From Polychytrium aggregatum (taxonomy: Eukaryota; Chytridiomycota; Chytridiomycetes; Polychytriales), in contig NW_026516218.1 in the NCBI RefSeq assembly GCF_025602895.1, positions 434,001-498,000 of the forward strand: 64,000 bases of DNA. The letters run 5' to 3'. The notes under the pieces are model-generated. The model saw only the letters and a program-made list of their open reading frames with translations. It had not been told where the DNA came from and ran no database searches. Shown piece by piece: positions 1-57,393 of the stretch. The first letter of the stretch is position 1. Each line of letters opens with the position of its first letter. The position numbers and the translations under genes are program-made.

Positions 1-1
1 G

Positions 2-61
2 AGTATTGTTGCCCACGGAAACACCGTCAAGCTCCCTTATGCCGATGAGCTTAGCTTCTAA
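2..61 (+). CDS. 3' end of an unidentified gene (partial)
   Basis: An open frame enters from the left edge and ends at TAA 59-61, giving a 19-residue tail that ends ADELSF. Only this fragment is visible, so no function can be given. It could also be chance reading in a last exon. The transposon relic that follows starts about 75 bp downstream, in keeping with insertion in a 3' flank. Confidence 0.35.
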   Translation, partial: SIVAHGNTVKLPYADELSF

Positions 62-137
62 CTGCTTTCCCAGTTAATTTTCTTTGGCTGAGAAATTGAT
101 CCTCGTTCTCTTGCATTTGATATGACCCTTATTGAAC

Positions 138-416
138 TACATTCCAGTCTGCGCGAACGGGGCACCCGATTCTGAGGCCAGTGGCCATGTTTTTTTTTCC
201 TGGCTGTTGAATACACACACCCATTCACCACAAAGCCGTTCGGTGCTGCTGTCGTGAGATCTGTCGCTTGGCCTGTGAGTTGCGTCGTCTGCGTCTTCCT
301 CACACAGGGACACCCAGAGAAACGACTTGACTCACTTGGCCGGGTGTGTGATATGATCCAACTACGCCGTGTTGATCTGAATGAGACGATGCGTCCCATT
401 TTTTCAACACGCCGTA
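138..416 (+). mobile_element. Short non-autonomous element (MITE-like), Fanzor/Tc1 family
   Basis: The left end begins TACA and runs for 27 bases into GAACGGGGCACCC. The right end, read on the other strand, begins TACG and runs for 27 bases into a GGGACG block. Just inside the left end is a TTGAATACACACACCCATTC motif that recurs inside other copies (about 41.8 and 56.9 kb; reversed at 13.3 and 17.5 kb). There is no coding capacity. At 279 bp with TA at both ends it looks like a decayed derivative of the element at 19,337-23,077. Confidence 0.6.
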
Positions 417-829
417 ACTAGATCCCGAATACACCAATTCGCCTTGCCCATCAGCACGCCAGGAATACTGAAAGCCGGGCGACTCGTTCGATCTGACTGT
501 CTTGCGGACCGAGCGTATTCGAGACTGTCCTGCAAACCACCAACCCGCAATGGTTGCTGTGGAGGACATTCAACGGCACCGCCGTTCGCTTTTCCTCTGA
601 ATACGGTGCATTGCTCGCTTGGATCGTGTTGCTGAACCACTCATATGTGATTGACATCGTCACCCCGCCGTCCCCGCCTCGCCCGAGACTCCCCGCTCGC
701 CTCGCCCGCTTCTCCCTCGATCAGCGATATTCAGCCAGGGTCACTGAGCAATCTTAGGCTCCACCACCTTCACTACATCCTGTATCTTGTCCCATCAACC
801 AACCCGTTTCGCATCGACCTGCATACACA
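417..829. other. Intergenic, upstream of CFAP53
   Basis: About 410 bp with short open frames on both strands but no recognisable protein. A pyrimidine-rich stretch occupies roughly 660-720, directly upstream of the proposed CFAP53 start, and may belong to its promoter or 5' leader. Nothing else is seen. Confidence 0.4.
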
Positions 830-3822
830 ATGGCCACCGTCCATGTAGGATCGCTCTTCATCGCCAGCGTAGACTGCCGCACACTATCGTCGTGAAGAGC
901 CTTTGAACACTCCCGTCCACGTCGACCCGGCTATTCGCGATAGACGGCGATGGCATTTGCTTGGGCAGCGGTAATTGACTATCGGATGCCATTTTCTCCG
1001 GGCCCACCAGGCGGGTCGCAATCGACCCACCGATTTTTTGATCACCAACCGGCGACGCGATGAAGCGAACCGCAACCAGATGAAGGAGAGGACCAACTAC
1101 TACGCGCAGACTCGGCTCCAGGTAATAGACCTAAAACATGCGGACCCGGAGCGGGCTACGAGAGAGATATTCACCCCTTCCTCGACCCTTCTTCCTCGAC
1201 CGTCGGGGAAATGTGGCACCCTCGCCGCCGCATAGTCCGAGTTTGAAGAGTCATCGGGGACCGCGATCCGAAGAAACCATCTCTTCAAACGATACGAGGA
1301 GCTGAAGACACAAGAGGAAGCCACTCTGGAGGAGCGTCGAGCCAGGTTAGCGATGGTGTACACTCATCCAGCGACACTCGCCCTGACTGCACAGGCGCTG
1401 GTTTGGGTTGCTTTTTGCACTCCTCGCGATTCTACTTGCTCATCTCTTGGAATCGATGGGGGTCGGTCGCCTCCCAAACTCTCAAACCCCCAGACTCCGC
1501 GCCCTGCTGGCAGAAGACGAGGAGCTGTATCGACAGGAGCTGCTGGCCAAAGAAGAAACCAAAGAGAGTCGCCTGGCGGCCATGAAACTCAGAATGCAGG
1601 AACTCAAGACCAAGCGCGAGACCGAGCGAAAGATGGTCGTTGATGAAAAGCTCCGACAACGATGGAGGTCAGCGACCCTGTCCACATTGGTTGATTGCTA
1701 CCTGGTATCCAGCGGCATTCATCCAGGATGCGGGACTACTGTCTGGACCTCCGTGGCCGCGAGTCCAAGGCCAGTGATGACTGGGGACTGGGGGCTGGGA
1801 ACGTTGCCAGGAGGGGCAGTTGGTCGATGCCACTCAGCCCACCACAGCTCGCTCTGCTACCACTATCTACATCCAGGAATGAATGCGATGAACTCCGACA
1901 GATCGAATCGCAAGTTCTCGAGCTCGAGGTGGCCGACGCTCGAGCCGAACAAGTGGCCGAGCTCGAGGAGCGCAAGCGCTATGCTGCCGAAGGTGAGCTT
2001 GCAACGGCACACCTCCATCCGGCTGTAATCCGGGTCATCTTTGCATGTGCTTGGTCCCGTCATGGGCGATCAGGCCAGAGAGAGCCCCCCCCTCCCGCAC
2101 TAACGATGCTATGATGCGCTGCTCTCCGCTGTACCACTTTGCCGTGATGCCGTCCTCTAGAGAAGAAGTACTTTGATTATCTGTGGGAGCAGGATCGCCA
2201 ACGAAAGATCCAGCGGGAGGAAACCGAGCGCCAGAAGCGCAAACAGCAGGATGAGGCCGCTGTCACGATGCTCAAAGAACAAATGGAGTCGCTGCGCTTG
2301 CAGGCCATTGAAGAGGACCGCTTGAAGCGCGAGGAGGCAGCGCTGATGGTCAGTAGGCGGACACACTGGCTCGACAGGCTAGCGAAGGAAGGAATGCGTC
2401 GCCTGGCGGCTTGCTCCTGATTCCCTCTGGGTGGTGCTTCGGTTGCGTTGTTCGAGCTGCGCGGTCTCACTCTCGATGGCAACACGGCTGCTCTGTCGAC
2501 ACGTATTCACAGCGGCAAGAATACGAGACCCGTCAGCTGGAAGAAGAGCGAAACCGCCTGAGAAAGCAGCAGGAGCAGCGTCAAATTCAGCTCGAGCTTG
2601 ACAACTTCAACAAGCTCAAGGTCAGGCAGAAGCTCGAAGAAGCACAGGAGGCTGTTAATATGGATGTCAAGATCGTCGACCAGTTCTTCAGGATGGACGA
2701 ACGAGACCGGGAGTTCAAGAGCAGGAAGAAGGAGGAGATGCGCAAGGAGATGCAGCTATATCGCGAGAACTTGATGACTCAGAAGCAGGAGCAGGAGGCT
2801 GTGCAGAGAGAGATCGAGCGAATGCACAAGGATGAAGAAGAGAAGGTAGCAACGAGTCCAGCTTTGGCTCTCATTCTTGTGCATGTCTTTTGCTCGCTTT
2901 TGCTTGGAGAGCGTCGATACTCGCTCTGACCGAGCTGCTGTTCGATGGGCAACGACAGGTATGGCAAACCCGCGCGGAGAAATGGCAGCGAGAGCAACGT
3001 GCTCGCGATCGCCTGATGAAGGAGGTTCTCGAATGTCGAAAGGAGCAGCTGAAGAACGCTGGTATGAGTGGTTGCCTGTCGCTGTATCGTGCGATTCAGC
3101 TGCACAGCATCCAGACTCACCTTCATTTCCACAACGATTGCCCGGACTGCTCGACTTAGTCGAGATCAACAGAAGAAAGCAAGAGCAGACCAAACTGGAC
3201 CGCGAGCGGATTTTGCACCAACTTGAAGTCGCAAAGCGAGCAGAAGAAATCGCACAAGAGAAGCACCGCCAGGCGATGAAGCAGTACACAAGCGCACTAA
3301 TGGAGCAGATGCGCGAAGTTCGTGTACAGCGCCAAGACGAACGGAAGCAACTTGAGATGGAGGCTGCTGTTGACCGGGTGGGTATAGCTGCAACGGCAGA
3401 TGTGCAATCAAGGGTGCAATGTGCCTTGGTCAGATAGCCATGGCCCCATAGGCATGCCAGCGAATCGGTAAAGTGACCCCGCCGCACTACCGTGCACCCA
3501 CCCGATAGGATGCTGAGGAAAAGTTCCGAGAGTTGCTCAGGCGCGAGGCAGAGTATGCACAAAACATACCCAGGTGGGTGAATGATGCAGTGCACTTCTG
3601 CGTGCCAAACCGCCGCGATCTGCGTACTCCATCCGGTTGCTCAGCCGAAACAAGCAGGATCAGTAACAAGCGATGGCGTCCGTCGCCTCGTGCTCTGTTT
3701 CTACACCGACGGCGAGAGCGGTGGCCCATGCTCACGCCCATGCTCACGCCCATGCTAACCCATGCTAACGTCCACGACGACCCAGGGCCAGGGCTTTCGT
3801 GGCGCTGAATCCCCCAAGTTGA
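830..3822 (+). CDS. CFAP53: Cilia- and flagella-associated protein 53 (CFAP53/CCDC11)
   Basis: A multi-exon gene for a highly charged coiled-coil protein of the trichoplein/CFAP53 type, a microtubule inner protein of axonemal doublets. Supported exons include 830-844, 1011-1121 and 1236-1355 (all phase 0), then segments with LRALLAEDEELYRQELLAKE, VVDEKLRQRWR, KKYFDYLWEQDRQRKIQ, the DQFFRMDERDREFKSRKKEE block near 2690, VWQTRAEKWQREQRARDR near 2960, and REAEYAQNIPR near 3560. Order and spacing follow animal CFAP53. The last intron (GTGGGT to CCCAG) joins ARG+ARAFVALNPPS and a stop at 3822. The start at 830 is the least certain part. The gene shows that the organism builds a flagellum. Confidence 0.85.
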
Positions 3823-17814: not shown

Positions 17815-19113
17815 TTAGGTCCACACGTTCTCAAAGGGATAGGCGTTCATATCAAGGCCGTAGCTCAGCAATCGCTGAACGACCTTGACGTGGCCGTTGG
17901 TCATGGCCAATTTGAGCAGCAAGCCGCCATGGGATATCGTATCTGCGCCGTGCTGGAGAAGGAGCCCGACCACTTGATCATGGCCATGTTCGCACGCATT
18001 CTTGAGGGCCTCGTCAGCGTTGGCATGCACATCGGCATCGAATTCCAGTAACATTTGCACAACCGCCACATGGCCCATCTTGGCTGCCGTTCGCAGAGCC
18101 TCCCCGTGCGCTGCGTTGATATCGGCTCCACTCTCGAGCAGCAGTCTGAGGATCTGATCCCGTCCCTTGGCAGCGGCTACACGCAGGGCCTGATTGCCGG
18201 CGGCTTGAACGTCGCATCCCAGTCCGATGAGAAGACGTACCAGCTCGACGTGTCCGTTCTCGCAGGCCAGTCGGAAGGGAGCGTCGTCGCCGGCTCGGAA
18301 ATCAACGCCGCTTTCGATCAAGAGCCGGACGATTTGCTCGTGGCCCTGGCGCACGGCTTGTAGAAGGACATTGGAGGCGCCGTCGGCCCAGTGCGGATGA
18401 CGGTCGCGATAGACTTGAAGTACAAAGACGACCAGGTCGTGGTAGCCCAGACAGCAGCCCATACGCAAGATAGCCAGATTGTTGATGCTCATGTCGGCGC
18501 CAAAGGCCTCGAGGGCCTTCACGACATGCAGATGGTTCTTTCCGGCAGCCGCAATCGCGATGGCAGACAGGCGGTGTCGGTCAAAGGAGGTCTGTGAGTT
18601 GCCCAGCAGGAAATCGACAATGGCAAAGTGCCCGTTGATGGCGGCATAGTGGAGCGAGAGGTCGTCGTTGGAGTGCACATCAGCCCCGGCGGCAATAAGC
18701 GACCTGCAGGCAAGTAGATCGCCGAGGAAGCAGGCACTGTGCAGCACCCCGGTGCAACTCGAAGCACTGACAGAGTTGTGCCTGAGGATCATCTCGAGGA
18801 CGTGAGAATTGCCCGAAGTCGTGGCCCAGAGCATGACCGGCAGCATCGGCGAGTCGGAGGTGGTCGAGGGCCGAGATGAGTGCAGCTGAATGATCGTCTC
18901 GAGCAGATGCTGGGGAGCCGCCCTGGATGTCAGGAGCTTGAGCGAGGCCAGCAGACCCCGAGTGGCAAGCAGTGAGCGACAGAGCAGCCGATGCACATCC
19001 TGCCGGAGCTCTCGATAGAGCCGCTTGCTTGCCGACAGCAACCTCAGCGAGTCTGAAGGTCTCGAGATGAATGCGAATATATGGATGGAAACGTCGGACG
19101 GGATGCTTTCCAT
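17815..19113 (-). CDS. F-box-like protein with ankyrin repeats, intronless
   Basis: A 432-residue open frame from the ATG at 19,113 (MESIPSDVSIHIFAFIS). The first ~40 residues resemble an F-box (IPSDVSIHIFAFISRPSDSL, then SKRLYREL), the module that binds SKP1 in SCF ubiquitin ligases. The rest is about ten ankyrin units, for example GVLHSACFLGDLLACRSLI, ALRVAAAKGRDQILRLLLES and ALKNACEHGHDQVVGLLLQH. An upstream in-frame ATG at 19,215 would add 34 residues, but 19,113 gives the usual F-box start. The likely role is a substrate receptor with the ankyrin face as recognition surface; the substrate is unknown. It lies 223 bp left of the Fanzor element. Confidence 0.85.
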   Translation of the reverse strand: MESIPSDVSIHIFAFISRPSDSLRLLSASKRLYRELRQDVHRLLCRSLLATRGLLASLKLLTSRAAPQHLLETIIQLHSSRPSTTSDSPMLPVMLWATTSGNSHVLEMILRHNSVSASSCTGVLHSACFLGDLLACRSLIAAGADVHSNDDLSLHYAAINGHFAIVDFLLGNSQTSFDRHRLSAIAIAAAGKNHLHVVKALEAFGADMSINNLAILRMGCCLGYHDLVVFVLQVYRDRHPHWADGASNVLLQAVRQGHEQIVRLLIESGVDFRAGDDAPFRLACENGHVELVRLLIGLGCDVQAAGNQALRVAAAKGRDQILRLLLESGADINAAHGEALRTAAKMGHVAVVQMLLEFDADVHANADEALKNACEHGHDQVVGLLLQHGADTISHGGLLLKLAMTNGHVKVVQRLLSYGLDMNAYPFENVWT

Positions 19114-19336
19114 GGGCGCAAGCAGCGATGTGTTTGCAATGGTGGTTGGTGGACGAATTGCGAGACCGCGCAAAGGGAATGAATGAGGAGGATGCTGGGC
19201 GGCTCGCAGCTGCACCCAGGGCGGTCCGGGGGCTCGGATGCACTCGGATCGACGCTGAACCCCGTGGCTGCTGCCGGCGGCTGGAGAAGCGTCGGCCTGA
19301 CCTGGTGATGCACTCGGCGCAGCCTCCGGTATAGAT

Positions 19337-19364
19337 TACAGGCAATCCAATAAAAAACGGGACA
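19337..19364 (+). repeat. Left terminal inverted repeat of the Fanzor element
   Basis: 28 bp from TACA to GGGACA, followed by CCCGG. The same sequence with few changes starts the copies at 32,770 and 57,132. Confidence 0.85.
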
Positions 19365-19421
19365 CCCGGATTTTGACCATTCATCGAATATTTTGTTACC
19401 CAAAACCATCGCGCGCTGGCC

Positions 19422-20356
19422 ATGACCATTCGCCACACATCCGACTTTCGCACCGCCGCATTGCGATGCTACGATCTCATCCATAGCCTGCGCAAGGTTG
19501 CCACCATATTCAGTGTGTCCAAGAGCACCATCCATCGATGGCACCGAGGATGCAAGCCATCCGAGCCACCCCGAGTCCCAGCTCGCAGATCCACTTTCTT
19601 CGAGCAGGCATGTCCAGTCATTCGCACCCTGATTGAACAGGACCCGTTCCAGACTGGTCCTGTGCTGCGGTGCAAGCTCGAGTCCATCCTCCAGAGGAAA
19701 GTATCACTCTCACTCTGCCACACTGCCATCCACCGAGCAGGTCTCTCACACAAGAGGGCAACACACCTCTACAAGTCCAAGCGACTGGATGAGCGAGTGG
19801 CACAGTTCAGGGACCAGGCCCGCTCCATTGACCCACGTGACGATTCGTTTTTGTCGATGAGACAGGGATCAGGAGATCCATTTTCCCTCTCTACGGATAC
19901 TCGCCGAAGGGTGCTCCGCTTCGCCAGCGCAATCACATGAAGCACAAGTCTGTCTCGGCTGCATTTGCCATCAACCACTCTGGTGTGCTGCATCGCATGT
20001 ACATCCCCACATCATTCAAGACACACTCGATGGTCGAGTTCTTTGAGCGAGCGGCCTTCCCAGACGACTCTGTGATTGTGATGGACAATGTCAGCATGCA
20101 CAAGACAATGGCTGTCCTGGACTGCATCGAGCGCCGAGGATGGTCAGTGATCTTCACCCCACCTGCCTCGCCCGACTTCAATCCCATCGAGAACTTCTTT
20201 GGGATTGTGAAGCATCAGTACAGGAAGGCGGCAGCGGTGAATGCGTCCGAGGGGTTCAAGGTCGGGATGGTGACCCTGTTCGAGTCCGCCGTGCGGAGGG
20301 TGCTTCCAGATGTCTTCCCACGGCTGATTGAACGTGCGATGCGCTTCTGGGGTTGA
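19422..20356 (+). pseudogene. DD34E (Tc1/mariner-IS630-type) transposase with a -1 frameshift
   Basis: The first frame starts at ATG 19,422 and has an N-terminal helix-turn-helix (VATIFSVSKSTIHRW). It runs to about 19,850, where a run of five T (19,848-19,852) must be read with a -1 shift to reach VFVDETGIRRSIFPLYGYSP and continue to the stop at 20,356. The catalytic triad is the D of VDETG (GAT 19,856), the D of VMDN (GAC 20,084) and, 34 residues later, the E of SPDFNPIENFFG. The joined protein would be about 311 residues, normal for the family. The shift may be a disabling mutation or, as in some IS630 relatives, a natural slip. No domain is missing. Confidence 0.85.
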
Positions 20357-20473
20357 GTTCCCTCCAATCAAGCCGCCGTTTTCGCGTTCACATCCCTGGC
20401 TTGAACCTCTCGGCGATTTTTGAACAGGTCGCTTCCCCAACCAACCCGCAAAGACGGGCTCCTGCTCTCGGGT

Positions 20474-20480
20474 ATAAATG
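20474..20480 (+). promoter_or_regulatory. TATA box-like site upstream of the Fanzor gene
   Basis: TATAAAT within CTCGGGTATAAATGCC, 128 bp before the Fanzor start codon and about 118 bp after the transposase stop. It suggests that the Fanzor gene has its own promoter rather than depending on read-through. Confidence 0.5.
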
Positions 20481-20607
20481 CCACACCTTCGTCTCTGCTG
20501 CTTTCTTCCCTCATCTCACCTTGATCTGATCATCGCGCCATTGTACGATAAAAAAAAGTCTCTGCTCTGACCAGTACCACTGGCAGGCATCCAGCATCCT
20601 CCGCCCC

Positions 20608-22977
20608 ATGCCTCCGAAGCGCAAGGGTGCCGGTGATGGCCAGCCTCGGCCACCCAGGCCCAAGAAAGCCAAGTCACAGTCGGAGCCTGTCTCTGGTTCG
20701 TATTCTGATCCCACGCATGCTTGGTCGTCTGTTGCTCCGTCGCTCACCACCACTGCTTCTGCAGATCCAATGGATGTCGATCCCACCGAGCCTGGTCCAT
20801 CTACTTCCTCGAGTACTGGCAAGCGATGTCGCCAGTGCGATGGCACCGATCACGAACGCTGCAACACCAACAGGTGTCCCAAATACCGGCCCCTCAAGAG
20901 CTCTGTCGTCCCACTCGTGGATGGAAGGTCATCCGCCCCTCAGTTCAGCTGCTTCAAGCAGACGATGGATGGCTGTTGTCTCAATCCCGCTCTCCGCGAC
21001 AAGATCCAGGCCACCGTCGAGGCCATGACCCAGATCCAGTTCGAGGCATCCAGGCTGCTCAACCTGCACATCCTGAGGTGCATCGAGCAGGATCTTCCCG
21101 TCCCCGTCATCTCCAAGTCCACCCCTGCTTTCGTTCGCCAATGCTTCACGATCGTCCAGGCTGGTGCTCTCTTGACAGCCAGGGACAATGAAAAATACGA
21201 GCATCTGGTCGCTTCCTTTCGCGACTATCAGACCACTCGACATGCAGACCTGCCTCCGGCCCCTCGTCTGCCTGATGGTGCTCACAGTCAGCTTCTCACA
21301 CTGGCTGTCAATGCCTATGCCACCAACTGCACCACCCATCTCGACCTGGCCTACTGGCGACTCCTTCGCCGCTTCTGCGCTGCCGTCTTCCCAGCCAACA
21401 AGCACAAGCACGAAGCCATCGAGGCCTGTCTCGAGCTCTTCGAGAAACCAGGGCAGACTCCACCCAAGGCCGATCTCGAGTTCCTCTATCCAGACTTTGG
21501 CCACATCCTGGACGAGTTTCGGTACAGCAACGACCAGGACCGCTTCCGGGCCCTCCATCGCCTCTCACACCATGTGAGAATCCTCGCCCGAGACAAGATG
21601 GTCGACAATGTCCACAAGTGGATCGACTGTGACATGCCCGCCCTCCGAGTCACCGAGCTGCAGCGCCAGGCCAAGCTGGACAAGCTCACTGCCCGAGGCA
21701 TTCCCTCCGACGACAAGAGGTTCACCAAGGCCAAGTCTGAGCTCGGCACCACCAAGGCCAAGATCAACAAGCTGGCCGCCAGGATCAACTGGGCACTCAA
21801 GCAGCTCGCTCTGGACACTCCTCCGGCCGTGTGCACGATGGTTCCTCTATGCACCACCAAGGCCAAGTATGTCAAGATCAACACCGTCACTCTCTGGCAA
21901 CTCCTTGACACCGAACATCGTCTTAGACTCACCAGGGACAAGCTCAAGGAAGAAGGTGATGACGGCATCAACAACCAGGATCGTCTCTGGCGCAGTTGCT
22001 TCAAGCTGCGTAGTTCCCTCTTCCAAGAGCGGGACGTGGACAAGAAGCTGTTCAACTACGAGATCAGCACCGATGGCATTGGATGCACCATCGGTCTCGT
22101 CAAGTTTGTGCGTCGAACCGATCACACCGAGACCTCCGAGCCTCCTCCGACTGCCGAGCAGCGCATCCAGACCCACATCGGTGACCCAGACCCCAACCGC
22201 ACCACTTGGATTGGCATCGATCCTGGAGTCGGCTCCATCTTCACGGCGGTCATCCAAGCACCGGGCCACCAAGACGAGGTGGTCTCATTCTCCAATGGCC
22301 ACTACCAGCAAATGTGTGGCCATACGTCCAACACCAAGTGGCACAACACCATGAAGTATCGACTCAGCATCGAGACCTGGATGTCGACCACCCCCTCGCC
22401 CAAAGTGCAGTCCTCGGAGGCTTTCAAGGTCCATCTCACCCATGTCCTGCGACCGGAGCTGCGAGTGCAGCTCGACTTCCACCTTGGCAAGAAGGCCCGT
22501 CACCATCGCTTCACGGGCCACAAGAGACGCCAAGTGGCCGTCGACAGGATGTGCAAGGCCGTCCTGAAGCACGCCCCGATACGGACCGATGTGGTGATCG
22601 CCTTTGGCAATGCGTCATGGCGTCAAGGCAAGGGCTATGCATCCAGCCCTCGGAGGCAGCGGTTTGCTCGGTACTTTGAGCAATTCGAGCACCACCGTCG
22701 CCGTCCCAATCACCATCATGGAAGCGTCAAGGTGGCCTCGACGAACGAGTTCAACACCTCGCAAGTGTGCTCCAAGTGCCTGGAGCCAGTTCGGTTGGAA
22801 GGACTCGATGCGCCCAGTGTTGCGAATTCCCACTTTGTCAGGAGCTGCAAGAATCCCAGCTGCCGGACAGTGTGGAATCGCGACGTCAATGCGGCGCGCA
22901 ACATGATCACAGTATGCAGGTCGATTGTGGAGACCGGAGAGCGACCGGTGGTCTTCACTCGGAGGCTGCCAAAGTGA
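20608..22977 (+). CDS. Fanzor, eukaryotic TnpB-like RNA-guided nuclease
   Basis: An intronless 789-residue frame. Residues 1-70 are a basic, proline/serine-rich leader (MPPKRKG, RPKKAK) that may be a nuclear signal. C74-X2-C77-X4-H82-X2-C85 forms a zinc-knuckle-like motif. Residues ~110-520 are mostly helical, matching the recognition/wedge part of TnpB-like proteins. The RuvC-like nuclease begins at TTWIGIDPGVGS (D538), continues through DVVIAFGNASWRQGKG, then STNEFNTSQVCSKC (E714; C721, C724) and RSCKNPSCRTVWNRDVNAAR (C747, C752; D759). The D/E/D triad and the four-cysteine zinc ribbon are intact. Characterised Fanzors use an omega-RNA to find and cut DNA. It lies downstream of the transposase in the same element. 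An active protein is plausible; expression is unknown. Confidence 0.93.
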   Translation: MPPKRKGAGDGQPRPPRPKKAKSQSEPVSGSYSDPTHAWSSVAPSLTTTASADPMDVDPTEPGPSTSSSTGKRCRQCDGTDHERCNTNRCPKYRPLKSSVVPLVDGRSSAPQFSCFKQTMDGCCLNPALRDKIQATVEAMTQIQFEASRLLNLHILRCIEQDLPVPVISKSTPAFVRQCFTIVQAGALLTARDNEKYEHLVASFRDYQTTRHADLPPAPRLPDGAHSQLLTLAVNAYATNCTTHLDLAYWRLLRRFCAAVFPANKHKHEAIEACLELFEKPGQTPPKADLEFLYPDFGHILDEFRYSNDQDRFRALHRLSHHVRILARDKMVDNVHKWIDCDMPALRVTELQRQAKLDKLTARGIPSDDKRFTKAKSELGTTKAKINKLAARINWALKQLALDTPPAVCTMVPLCTTKAKYVKINTVTLWQLLDTEHRLRLTRDKLKEEGDDGINNQDRLWRSCFKLRSSLFQERDVDKKLFNYEISTDGIGCTIGLVKFVRRTDHTETSEPPPTAEQRIQTHIGDPDPNRTTWIGIDPGVGSIFTAVIQAPGHQDEVVSFSNGHYQQMCGHTSNTKWHNTMKYRLSIETWMSTTPSPKVQSSEAFKVHLTHVLRPELRVQLDFHLGKKARHHRFTGHKRRQVAVDRMCKAVLKHAPIRTDVVIAFGNASWRQGKGYASSPRRQRFARYFEQFEHHRRRPNHHHGSVKVASTNEFNTSQVCSKCLEPVRLEGLDAPSVANSHFVRSCKNPSCRTVWNRDVNAARNMITVCRSIVETGERPVVFTRRLPK

Positions 22978-23077
22978 TCTGTTTTATTTCTTGTGGCTTT
23001 GCTTGACGCAAGCACAGCACATACTACATGTTCATGGAAACGGCTATATTGTCCCGTTTTTTTCTGAATAAAGTGTA
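22978..23077 (+). ncRNA. Fanzor 3' end and right transposon end, candidate omega-RNA region
   Basis: The 100 bp after the Fanzor stop contain a perfect 5-bp-stem hairpin (GCTTG-ACG-CAAGC, 23,001-23,013) and end in the right terminal repeat. The copy at 57,132-57,393 keeps this stretch nearly unchanged, including the hairpin with an altered loop (GAT for GAC). In TnpB systems the guide RNA comes from the right end and its guide lies just outside the element. The assignment here is by analogy only. Confidence 0.35.
23050..23077 (-). repeat. Right terminal inverted repeat of the Fanzor element
   Basis: Read on the minus strand from 23,077 it begins TACA, contains ATTCAG, and ends AAAAAACGGGACA. 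It is shared with the copies ending at 33,133 and 57,393. Confidence 0.85.
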
Positions 23078-23283
23078 ATTTGTTCAGGCGACAGCTGACA
23101 GAAAGAAAAAAAAGTCGGTATTGCGAGCGGCCCAGAAGCGGAGAGCGGGCCGGCGGGGCGACAGATAGACGCAGTGTGATCGGAGCAAGAATAGGGCCCG
23201 GGAGAAGCATTTCGCAGGGGCTGGGAAAACACTGTATCCGGAGCTGGCTGCATCCTTATGCTGATGGCTGTTGCGAGGTGCAT

Positions 23284-32769: not shown

Positions 32770-33133
32770 TGCAGTCAATCCAGAAAGAACGGGACACCTT
32801 GGTTTTTGGTCATTGACCGAATAATTCGTTGCCTCCAAACATCGTGCGCTGGCCACGACCATTCTGTGATGCGTGCTACACTGTCATCTATAGCCTGAGA
32901 AAAGTTGCCTCCGTATTCAGTGTGTCCAAGAGCACCATTCACCGCTGGCAATGCATCATGGCGTCAAGGGCGCGCATCCAGTCCCAGGAGGCAGCGGTTT
33001 GCCAAGTACTTTGAGCAGTTCAAGCACCGTCGCCGCCCACATCGCCCTTATGGCTTATCTGGATGCATGCCATCACATACTACGCTGACATATGGGTTAT
33101 GGGCGGTGTCCCGCTTTTTCTGAATTAGGTGTA
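32770..33133 (+). mobile_element. Internal-deletion derivative of the Fanzor transposon
   Basis: The left end (TGCAGTCAATCCAG...GAACGGGACACC) and the right end (TACACCTAATTCAG... on the other strand) match the full element. The first ~180 bp correspond to the left end and the start of the transposase, including VFSVSKSTIHRW. At about 32,947 the sequence jumps to the Fanzor region encoding ASWRQG...SSPRRQRFAKYFEQF and then to the right end. The join shares TGGCA with both parents. Nothing functional can be made from it. Size is 364 bp. Confidence 0.8.
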
Positions 33134-41745: not shown

Positions 41746-42040
41746 TACAGCGTTTCCAAAATGAAATGGGACACCCCCGTTTTGAGCCATGACATATATT
41801 TTGGTTCTGGAACCTGAATACACCCACCCACTCATTGCAGTCATGGCCAAGCACAGCACCCTCGATTTCCGCATCGCTGCACTGCGACCGGTGGTCTTCA
41901 CTCGGAGGGTGGTCTTCACTCGGAGGCTGCCAAAGTGATCTGTTCTATTTCTTATGGCATAGTTAGACGCATGCCATCGCATACTACGCCGACAAATGGG
42001 TTGTGGGCAGGTGTCCCATTTCCCTGTCTCGTGAAAGGAT
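41746..42040 (+). mobile_element. Internal-deletion derivative of a Fanzor transposon (second subfamily)
   Basis: The left end begins TACAGCG and after 28 bp reaches GGGACACCCCC. The TGAATACACCCACCC motif and a transposase-like start (MAKHSTLDFRIAALR) follow. At about 41,885 it switches to the Fanzor 3' end (GACCGGTGGTCTTCACTCGG...CTGCCAAAGTGA), where GTGGTCTTCACTCGGAGG is present twice. The right end (GGTGTCCCATTTCC...) is less well kept. GCGA is shared at the junction. The left end differs from 19,337 (GAAATGGGACA), so the source was probably a sister element. Confidence 0.75.
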
Positions 42041-57131: not shown

Positions 57132-57393
57132 TGCAGCAAATCCAATAAAAAACGGGACACCCGTGTTTTTGACCATTCATCGAATATTTTGTTCCCCAAT
57201 GTTATCGCGCGCTGACACTCCGAGACCAGTGTGCAGGTCGATTGTGGAGACCGGAGAGCGACCGGTGGTATTCACTTGGAGGCTGCCAAAGTGATCTGTT
57301 TATTTCTTATGGCTTTGCTTGATGCAAGCACATCACATACTACATGTTCATGGAAACGGCTGTGTTGTCCCGTTTTTTTCTGAATAACGTGTA
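57132..57393 (+). mobile_element. 262-bp deletion derivative keeping both ends of the Fanzor transposon
   Basis: The left ~95 bp match 19,337-19,430 (CCAATAAAAAACGGGACACC, then TTTTGACCATTCATCGAATA). The right ~160 bp match 22,918-23,077, the last Fanzor codons and the right end, with about ten differences. It ends in TGTCCCGTTTTTTTCTGAAT and TA. Everything between is missing. The hairpin GCTTG-ATG-CAAGC (57,317-57,329) is kept with a changed loop. This is the youngest-looking copy in the window. Confidence 0.85.

Follow-up and report, generated by a model that had tools for sequence, protein, structure and literature searches.

The window analyzed here is a stretch of 64,000 nucleotides from the chytrid Polychytrium aggregatum (contig NW_026516218.1, positions 434,001 to 498,000). 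On its plus strand, at positions 19337..23077, lies what is with near certainty an IS630/Tc1-mariner-type transposon carrying a Fanzor-type nuclease. A transposase and a Fanzor gene are arranged on one strand between inverted repeats, with a TA at both borders. The subject of this report is a T that precedes the left TA at nearly all sampled insertion sites of this family, together with the part that the nuclease may play in keeping the element at such sites.

Borders and genes of the element

With both TA copies included the element spans 19337..23077; the element proper, with the TA copies excluded, spans 19339-23075 (both plus strand). The left terminal inverted repeat (TACAGGCAATCCAATAAAAAACGGGACA, 19337..19364, plus strand) and the right one (TGTCCCGTTTTTTTCTGAATAAAGTGTA, 23050..23077, plus strand) are each 28 bp long including the TA. 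The two ends agree at 21 of 28 positions and share an identical inner stretch of 13 nucleotides (AAAAAACGGGACA), in agreement with the initial annotation. The genome-wide search with both ends that this annotation had suggested was carried out on 64.7 Mb in 418 contigs (the window belongs to contig C68). With up to three mismatches, it returned 396 matches to the left end and 276 to the right end, counts that include haplotype duplicates. Control patterns read backwards returned 0, so the matches are not due to chance, and the window copy is taken to be one among hundreds. Among the best 40 of 1351 candidates, many copies span exactly element positions 1-3741, and copies with common ends carry different outside flanks. 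Neither the full copies nor the empty sites examined placed the borders elsewhere. These same-ended copies, with the single-TA empty sites of another copy described below, bear out the earlier view: the transposon is of the Tc1/mariner type, carries a Fanzor, duplicates its target TA, and has ends definable with single-base precision.

The transposase consists of two open pieces. The first (19422..19940, plus strand) holds the helix-turn-helix part and matches HTH_23 with an E value of 0.0014, under the curated cut-off. The second (19937..20356, plus strand) is out of frame with the first and holds the DDE part; its match to DDE_3 in Pfam passes the cut-off (E 4e-17). The IS630 transposase equivalog model, queried with the second piece only, gives E 2e-16 and 60 bits, under its whole-protein cut-off of 100. 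The transposase is IS630-like, and the DDE domain, the TA duplication and the inverted repeats place the element among the IS630/Tc1-mariner transposons. Because the transposase is frameshifted, the window copy is not complete: that description, taken from the initial annotation, holds for the ends and the open Fanzor but fails for the transposase. A full frame of 310 amino acids is present in 13 of 34 aligned copies, and the ratio of nonsynonymous to synonymous polymorphism (pN/pS) among open transposases is 0.22 (n=12). Counts over these 34 copies are not random samples, since copies entered the set by similarity or for a perfect left end, and four of them are second haplotypes.

The Fanzor gene (20608..22977, plus strand) is open and encodes 789 amino acids. 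Its match to Cas12f1-like_TNB in Pfam is above the cut-off (E 6e-9), and that to guided_TnpB in NCBIfam is under it (E 9e-6). The Fanzor fingerprint is described as a DPG in RuvC-I and a glutamate six residues before the zinc finger (PMC10711439). Here, DPG is found at residue 538, and E714 stands six residues ahead of a CxxC (E714-FNTSQV-CSKC). The second cysteine pair is a CxxxxC and lies farther off than in the search pattern of PMC10711439. By nuclease-domain profile and fingerprint, the protein belongs to the Fanzors of the TnpB superfamily. Similarity to solved Fanzor1 proteins was not found, with E 0.63 for SpuFz1 when the protein was the query and no match at E 0.1 for a four-row profile; solved structures searched with the sequence or profile likewise gave no significant match. 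Placement in Fanzor1 rather than Fanzor2 is provisional and follows from the non-IS607 transposon context. One scan of viral contigs confirmed no viral relatives.

The Fanzor frame is open in 21 of the 34 aligned copies. The best 57 of 1,319 Fanzor matches are all full length (57/57), eight of them with one stop, and pN/pS among open Fanzors is 0.32 (n=20). Deletions of at least 12 bp touch the transposase part in 16/34 copies and the Fanzor in 1/34 (27 bp), yet the Fanzor stretch is 2.5-fold longer. The Fanzor is kept while the transposase decays, which counts in favor of the mechanism proposed below.

The base preceding the left TA

The T at the left border and the left TA together form the sequence TTA (19336..19338, plus strand), the proposed target-adjacent motif (TAM). 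Genome-wide, 64 of 68 distinct left flanks carry T at -1; these flanks derive from 100 of the 106 perfect left ends whose -8 base is G or C. In another set, which shares some sites with this one, 26/27 distinct flanks have the T. As background, T precedes 13.5% of the 2,762 TAs on both strands of the window. On the right side, the corresponding base (+1) is A in 8/42 distinct flanks, which is the level of chance (p 0.20), and the difference between left T and right A is strong (Fisher p 2e-16). The base at -2 is A or T in 51/68 left flanks.

Sleeping Beauty, a Tc1/mariner transposon, has a symmetric preference at its TA sites even with orientation fixed (PMC5801840), and on that basis the transposase would not be expected to produce a one-sided bias. 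The TAMs determined for other Fanzors, such as CATA and TTAA, are short and rich in T and A (PMC10432273, PMC11423790). A TTA target motif of the Fanzor, read beside a right-flank guide, would predict just such a one-sided T-TA, and the T may thus have a TAM function.

At one site, the origin of the T can be read directly. The insertion at C25:27669-31304 interrupts a high-copy repeat, and a single TA occupies the insertion point in 19/19 fetched unoccupied copies of this repeat. This bears out the TA borders by the empty-site comparison that the initial annotation had called for, at the site of another copy. A T precedes the single TA in all 19, so at this site the T is native and belongs to the target DNA.

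Copies on second haplotypes give further comparisons. In 31 of the 68 distinct left flanks the flank occurs twice, with ~98-100% identity outside the element, which suggests that part of the genome is represented in the assembly by both haplotypes. The joined flanks of 37 insertions (24 + 13, the former searched among the best 40 of 315 candidates) yielded no empty site, and a second haplotype was seen at 19. A third set of 25 joined sites (best 40 of 279) is dominated by one repeat, the source of the C25 empty sites, and is uninformative on second haplotypes of other sites. At 8 of the 20 two-haplotype sites with both lengths readable, the allele versions differ by more than 10 bp by coordinates; at one site the alleles measure 3618 and ~311 bp.

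A comparison group is provided by elements with a second Fanzor, which is 38-51% identical to the first depending on the alignment piece. Their left end reads TACAGCC in place of TACAGGC, one early position being different, and their left 85-100 bp are ~90-97% identical to the first family. The bases at -1 are C, G, A, C, T, T, T, and T. T is thus present in 4/8 distinct flanks, with cargo checked by tblastn, versus 64/68 in the first family (p 0.003). Excluded from this count are C30/C79 (T; L022, a short derivative with a first-family-like tail) and C96/C127/C140, in which the first base of the TA is altered and the preceding base is T. Diverged first-Fanzor copies, ~80-86% identical across most of the compared stretch, have T in 4/4 cases with a readable TA (C385, C377, C400, and C412). 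Here, C8 was excluded for its changed TA, and C2:774k and C58:93k because a left end of the first type could not be read. Since these diverged copies keep the T, the age of the copies alone does not explain 4/8 against 64/68. TACAGCG-type left ends have T in 5/8 distinct flanks, with cargo mostly unchecked. The comparison favors the Fanzor over the transposase as the source of the T rule, though it falls short of proof.

Five right ends of the second family (L141, L142, L146, L151, and L052) have similar flanks (agtat.tcgc). This suggests insertion in one repeat or a larger composite element.

Short derivatives, the right end, and mosaic copies

Twelve short derivatives with both ends were fetched, from 11 sites, with sizes of 283, 312-313, 383-385, and 1114 bp. 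In 12/12 the right part begins at or before element position 3574. The derivatives retain at least ~168 bp of the right end, and the left part is reduced to as little as ~98 bp. All 12 lack the Fanzor gene but have its right end, and T stands at -1 in 12/12. In TnpB and Fanzor systems the guide derives from the right flank and the motif lies on the left (PMC10432273, PMC10711439). By this geometry, the predicted guide of the window copy would be the right flank at 23078..23097 (plus strand), with a length of 20 assumed. The stretch kept by the shortest derivatives (22910..23077, plus strand) is a candidate guide-RNA (omegaRNA) scaffold, and on sequence grounds the last ~168 bp are a candidate guide-RNA gene.

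Two hairpins are predicted in the right end, with folding z-scores of -2.0 for the last 100 nucleotides and -1.5 for the last 168. A search of Rfam gave no family match at the cut-off for the right end, only two hits at chance level. The second Fanzor family also ends in a hairpin, in which the repeat core is the 3’ arm. The right-end hairpin varies among the derivatives in the window; covariation is not claimed because the sequences are too few and too unequal for a count. The last 60 Fanzor codons (22798..22977, plus strand) have the least third-position diversity of all 60-codon windows (rank 1 of 730), which could also come from exchange with the short derivatives. The expectation in the initial annotation that intact copies would reveal the guide RNA and the target rule is thus borne out by the copy comparison only as far as a specific candidate for each (the last ~168 bp and TTA).

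Three further derivatives are present in the window. A short derivative of the same family lies at 57139-57393, with a left part that is ~91% identical and a right 168 bp that is 94% identical. The derivative at 32772-33133 is diverged; in it, the beginning of a transposase is fused to part of a Fanzor and to a right end of related type. The short element at 41746-41999 has a TACAGCG-type left end, a T before the TA, and a tail ~88% like the first-family Fanzor end. Directly upstream of the transposon, on the minus strand (17815-19215), is an open frame that looks ankyrin-repeat-like by eye.

Copies of the element are mosaics. Over 182 common two-state sites in the 34 copies, association between sites is lost within 20-50 bp. 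The mean r2 (squared correlation) is 0.32 for sites up to 20 bp apart, 0.05 at 20-50 bp, and ~0.03, equal to independence, beyond. Multi-base variants recur among copies in many combinations. Haplotype pairs at the same site (three fully compared) have near-identical flanks and Fanzor regions 95.5-97.1% identical, a range that falls within the 94.4-97.1% of unrelated copies. Copies L002 and L006 show no difference in the first 1190 bp and 75 differences from there to position 3555, a pattern that, read from sequence, marks a conversion tract. The mosaic could result from intense ectopic gene conversion or from an effect of assembly, the latter being less likely for the large deletions. Large length differences between alleles would be hard to explain by consensus errors, as judged from the assembly. 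Decay of CpG was considered as a cause of the mosaic and is ruled out, with 37/182 common sites of CpG type.

The right flanks of L042, L067, L030, L031, and L105 place the insertion exactly in the TA of a related element or beside its terminal repeat. This placement looks like reuse of old insertion sites.

Proposed mechanism, alternatives, and significance

The observations comprise the borders, the duplicated TA, a T that belongs to the target at one site, the left-only T bias, an open Fanzor with its active-site signature, and derivatives that retain the right end; from these we infer steps of transcription, guide use, TAM recognition, cutting, and repair. The transposase would excise the element and insert it at TA sites, doubling the TA. 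The 3’ end of the Fanzor gene and the right end would be transcribed as a guide-RNA scaffold, with the DNA flanking on the right as the guide. The nuclease would cut where the guide sequence follows TTA, a motif that would exist at the vacated site alone, formed by the left-flank T and the TA. An occupied site would be spared because GTGTA, not TTA, stands before the guide. The cut vacated site would then be repaired from a homologue still bearing the element. Copies at TTA sites would be kept and multiplied and those at other TA sites lost upon moving, and from this the one-sided T would follow. In this reading, the nuclease of a Fanzor mariner cuts TTA sites again once they are vacated and thereby keeps the copies in place; the reading is judged probable, with considerable room for doubt. 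A donor-site retention model for IS200/IS605 TnpB is said to have been put forward by Meers in 2023.

A broader form of the proposal is offered tentatively, at somewhat short of an even chance. The one-sided T-TA would be a population-level trace of Fanzor activity: integration would be symmetric, and the TAM at the vacated site would decide which copies survive and multiply. Short derivatives would ride along by keeping the guide-RNA gene alone, and frequent breaks would feed exchange between copies, giving a freely recombining pool.

Several observations weigh against retention by the nuclease. The T count of second-Fanzor elements, at 4/8, exceeds background (p 0.015) and may reflect a TTA preference of the transposase itself; the likeness of their transposases to that of the first family is known over the left 85-100 bp only. 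At the L037 site, two diverged unoccupied paralogs (L061/L062) have A before the TA, and a native T is established at the C25 site only. Neither a vacated allele nor an excision footprint came to light, 19/19 two-haplotype sites being occupied on both haplotypes. Four of the 68 left flanks lack T at -1. Three short copies from two sites (L044, L045, and L047) show a left end, but the stretch retrieved for them contains no right one. Folding of the right end is only weakly unusual, and that of a left end folded alone is only somewhat weaker.

The chief alternative is a one-orientation preference for TTA on the part of the transposase, the two element ends being different; the Fanzor would then merely fit this preference or contribute nothing to the bias. 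In IS200/IS605 elements, likewise, the motif that TnpB reads has been selected beforehand by the transposase. Ends that agree at only 21/28 positions make left and right distinguishable, and the A or T at -2 and the T counts of the second-Fanzor and TACAGCG-type ends would also be in keeping with such a preference. It has to contend with the drop from 64/68 to 4/8 beside nearly the same left end and with the symmetric preference of Sleeping Beauty, and is considered unlikely, though a serious contender.

A second alternative, that this is an ordinary mariner with the Fanzor as an inactive passenger and the T as an unexplained quirk of targeting, is improbable. Copies with a dead transposase or Fanzor do exist (Fanzor not open in 13/34), but the pN/pS of 0.32, the avoidance of the Fanzor by deletions, and the minimum of third-position diversity at the 3’ end of the gene all speak against it. 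A third reading, in which the T belongs to the element as its terminal base and not to the target DNA, is most improbable. In its favor, the T is almost invariant and A stands there in the L037-site paralogs; against it, the T lies outside the duplicated TA, and for the C25 site the reading is refuted by TTA with one TA in all 19 unoccupied copies.

Fanzors in mariner-like transposons, cited as known in the initial annotation, have indeed been so since 2013 (PMC3627910), and the window element is therefore not new in kind. SPu-1 of Spizellomyces punctatus, the source of SpuFz1, likewise has a Fanzor1, inverted repeats (~33 bp), putative TA duplications, and multiple copies, 17 of them full length (PMC3627910). 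Its Fanzor TAM, CATA, ends in TA as the proposed TTA does (PMC10432273); the target context is CA-TA there and T-TA in the window family. Unlike the window element, with its transposase and a 789-residue Fanzor little like SpuFz1, SPu-1 holds a Fanzor only (633 amino acids). PGv-1 and PUl-1 combine a mariner-like transposase and a Fanzor1 in one element with TA duplications, as here, but the accessible text of PMC3627910 describes no multi-copy target footprint for them, and PGv-1 also bears an endonuclease gene. TnpB of IS200/IS605 elements shares the right-flank guide, the left-flank TAM, and an occupied site without TAM (PMC10711439); the window element differs in its cut-and-paste DDE transposase, TA duplication, inverted repeats, and eukaryotic host. 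A literature search that left out supplements and most subscription journals found, in the accessible texts, neither a TAM read from the insertion flanks of a Fanzor-mariner family nor a report of derivatives keeping the guide-RNA end.

Little is known of Fanzor function (PMC10711439), and the role of Fanzors in the life of their transposons is still to be established; this single genome has dozens of natural insertion sites with readable flanks. It supplies a predicted motif (TTA) and a predicted guide that begins immediately past the right TA, and adds both the minimal right end retained in derivatives and, for comparison, elements with a second Fanzor. If the proposed mechanism is true, the TAM of a Fanzor could be deduced from nothing but the flanks of its insertions, and the idea that an RNA-guided nuclease of eukaryotes serves selfish retention would become directly testable.

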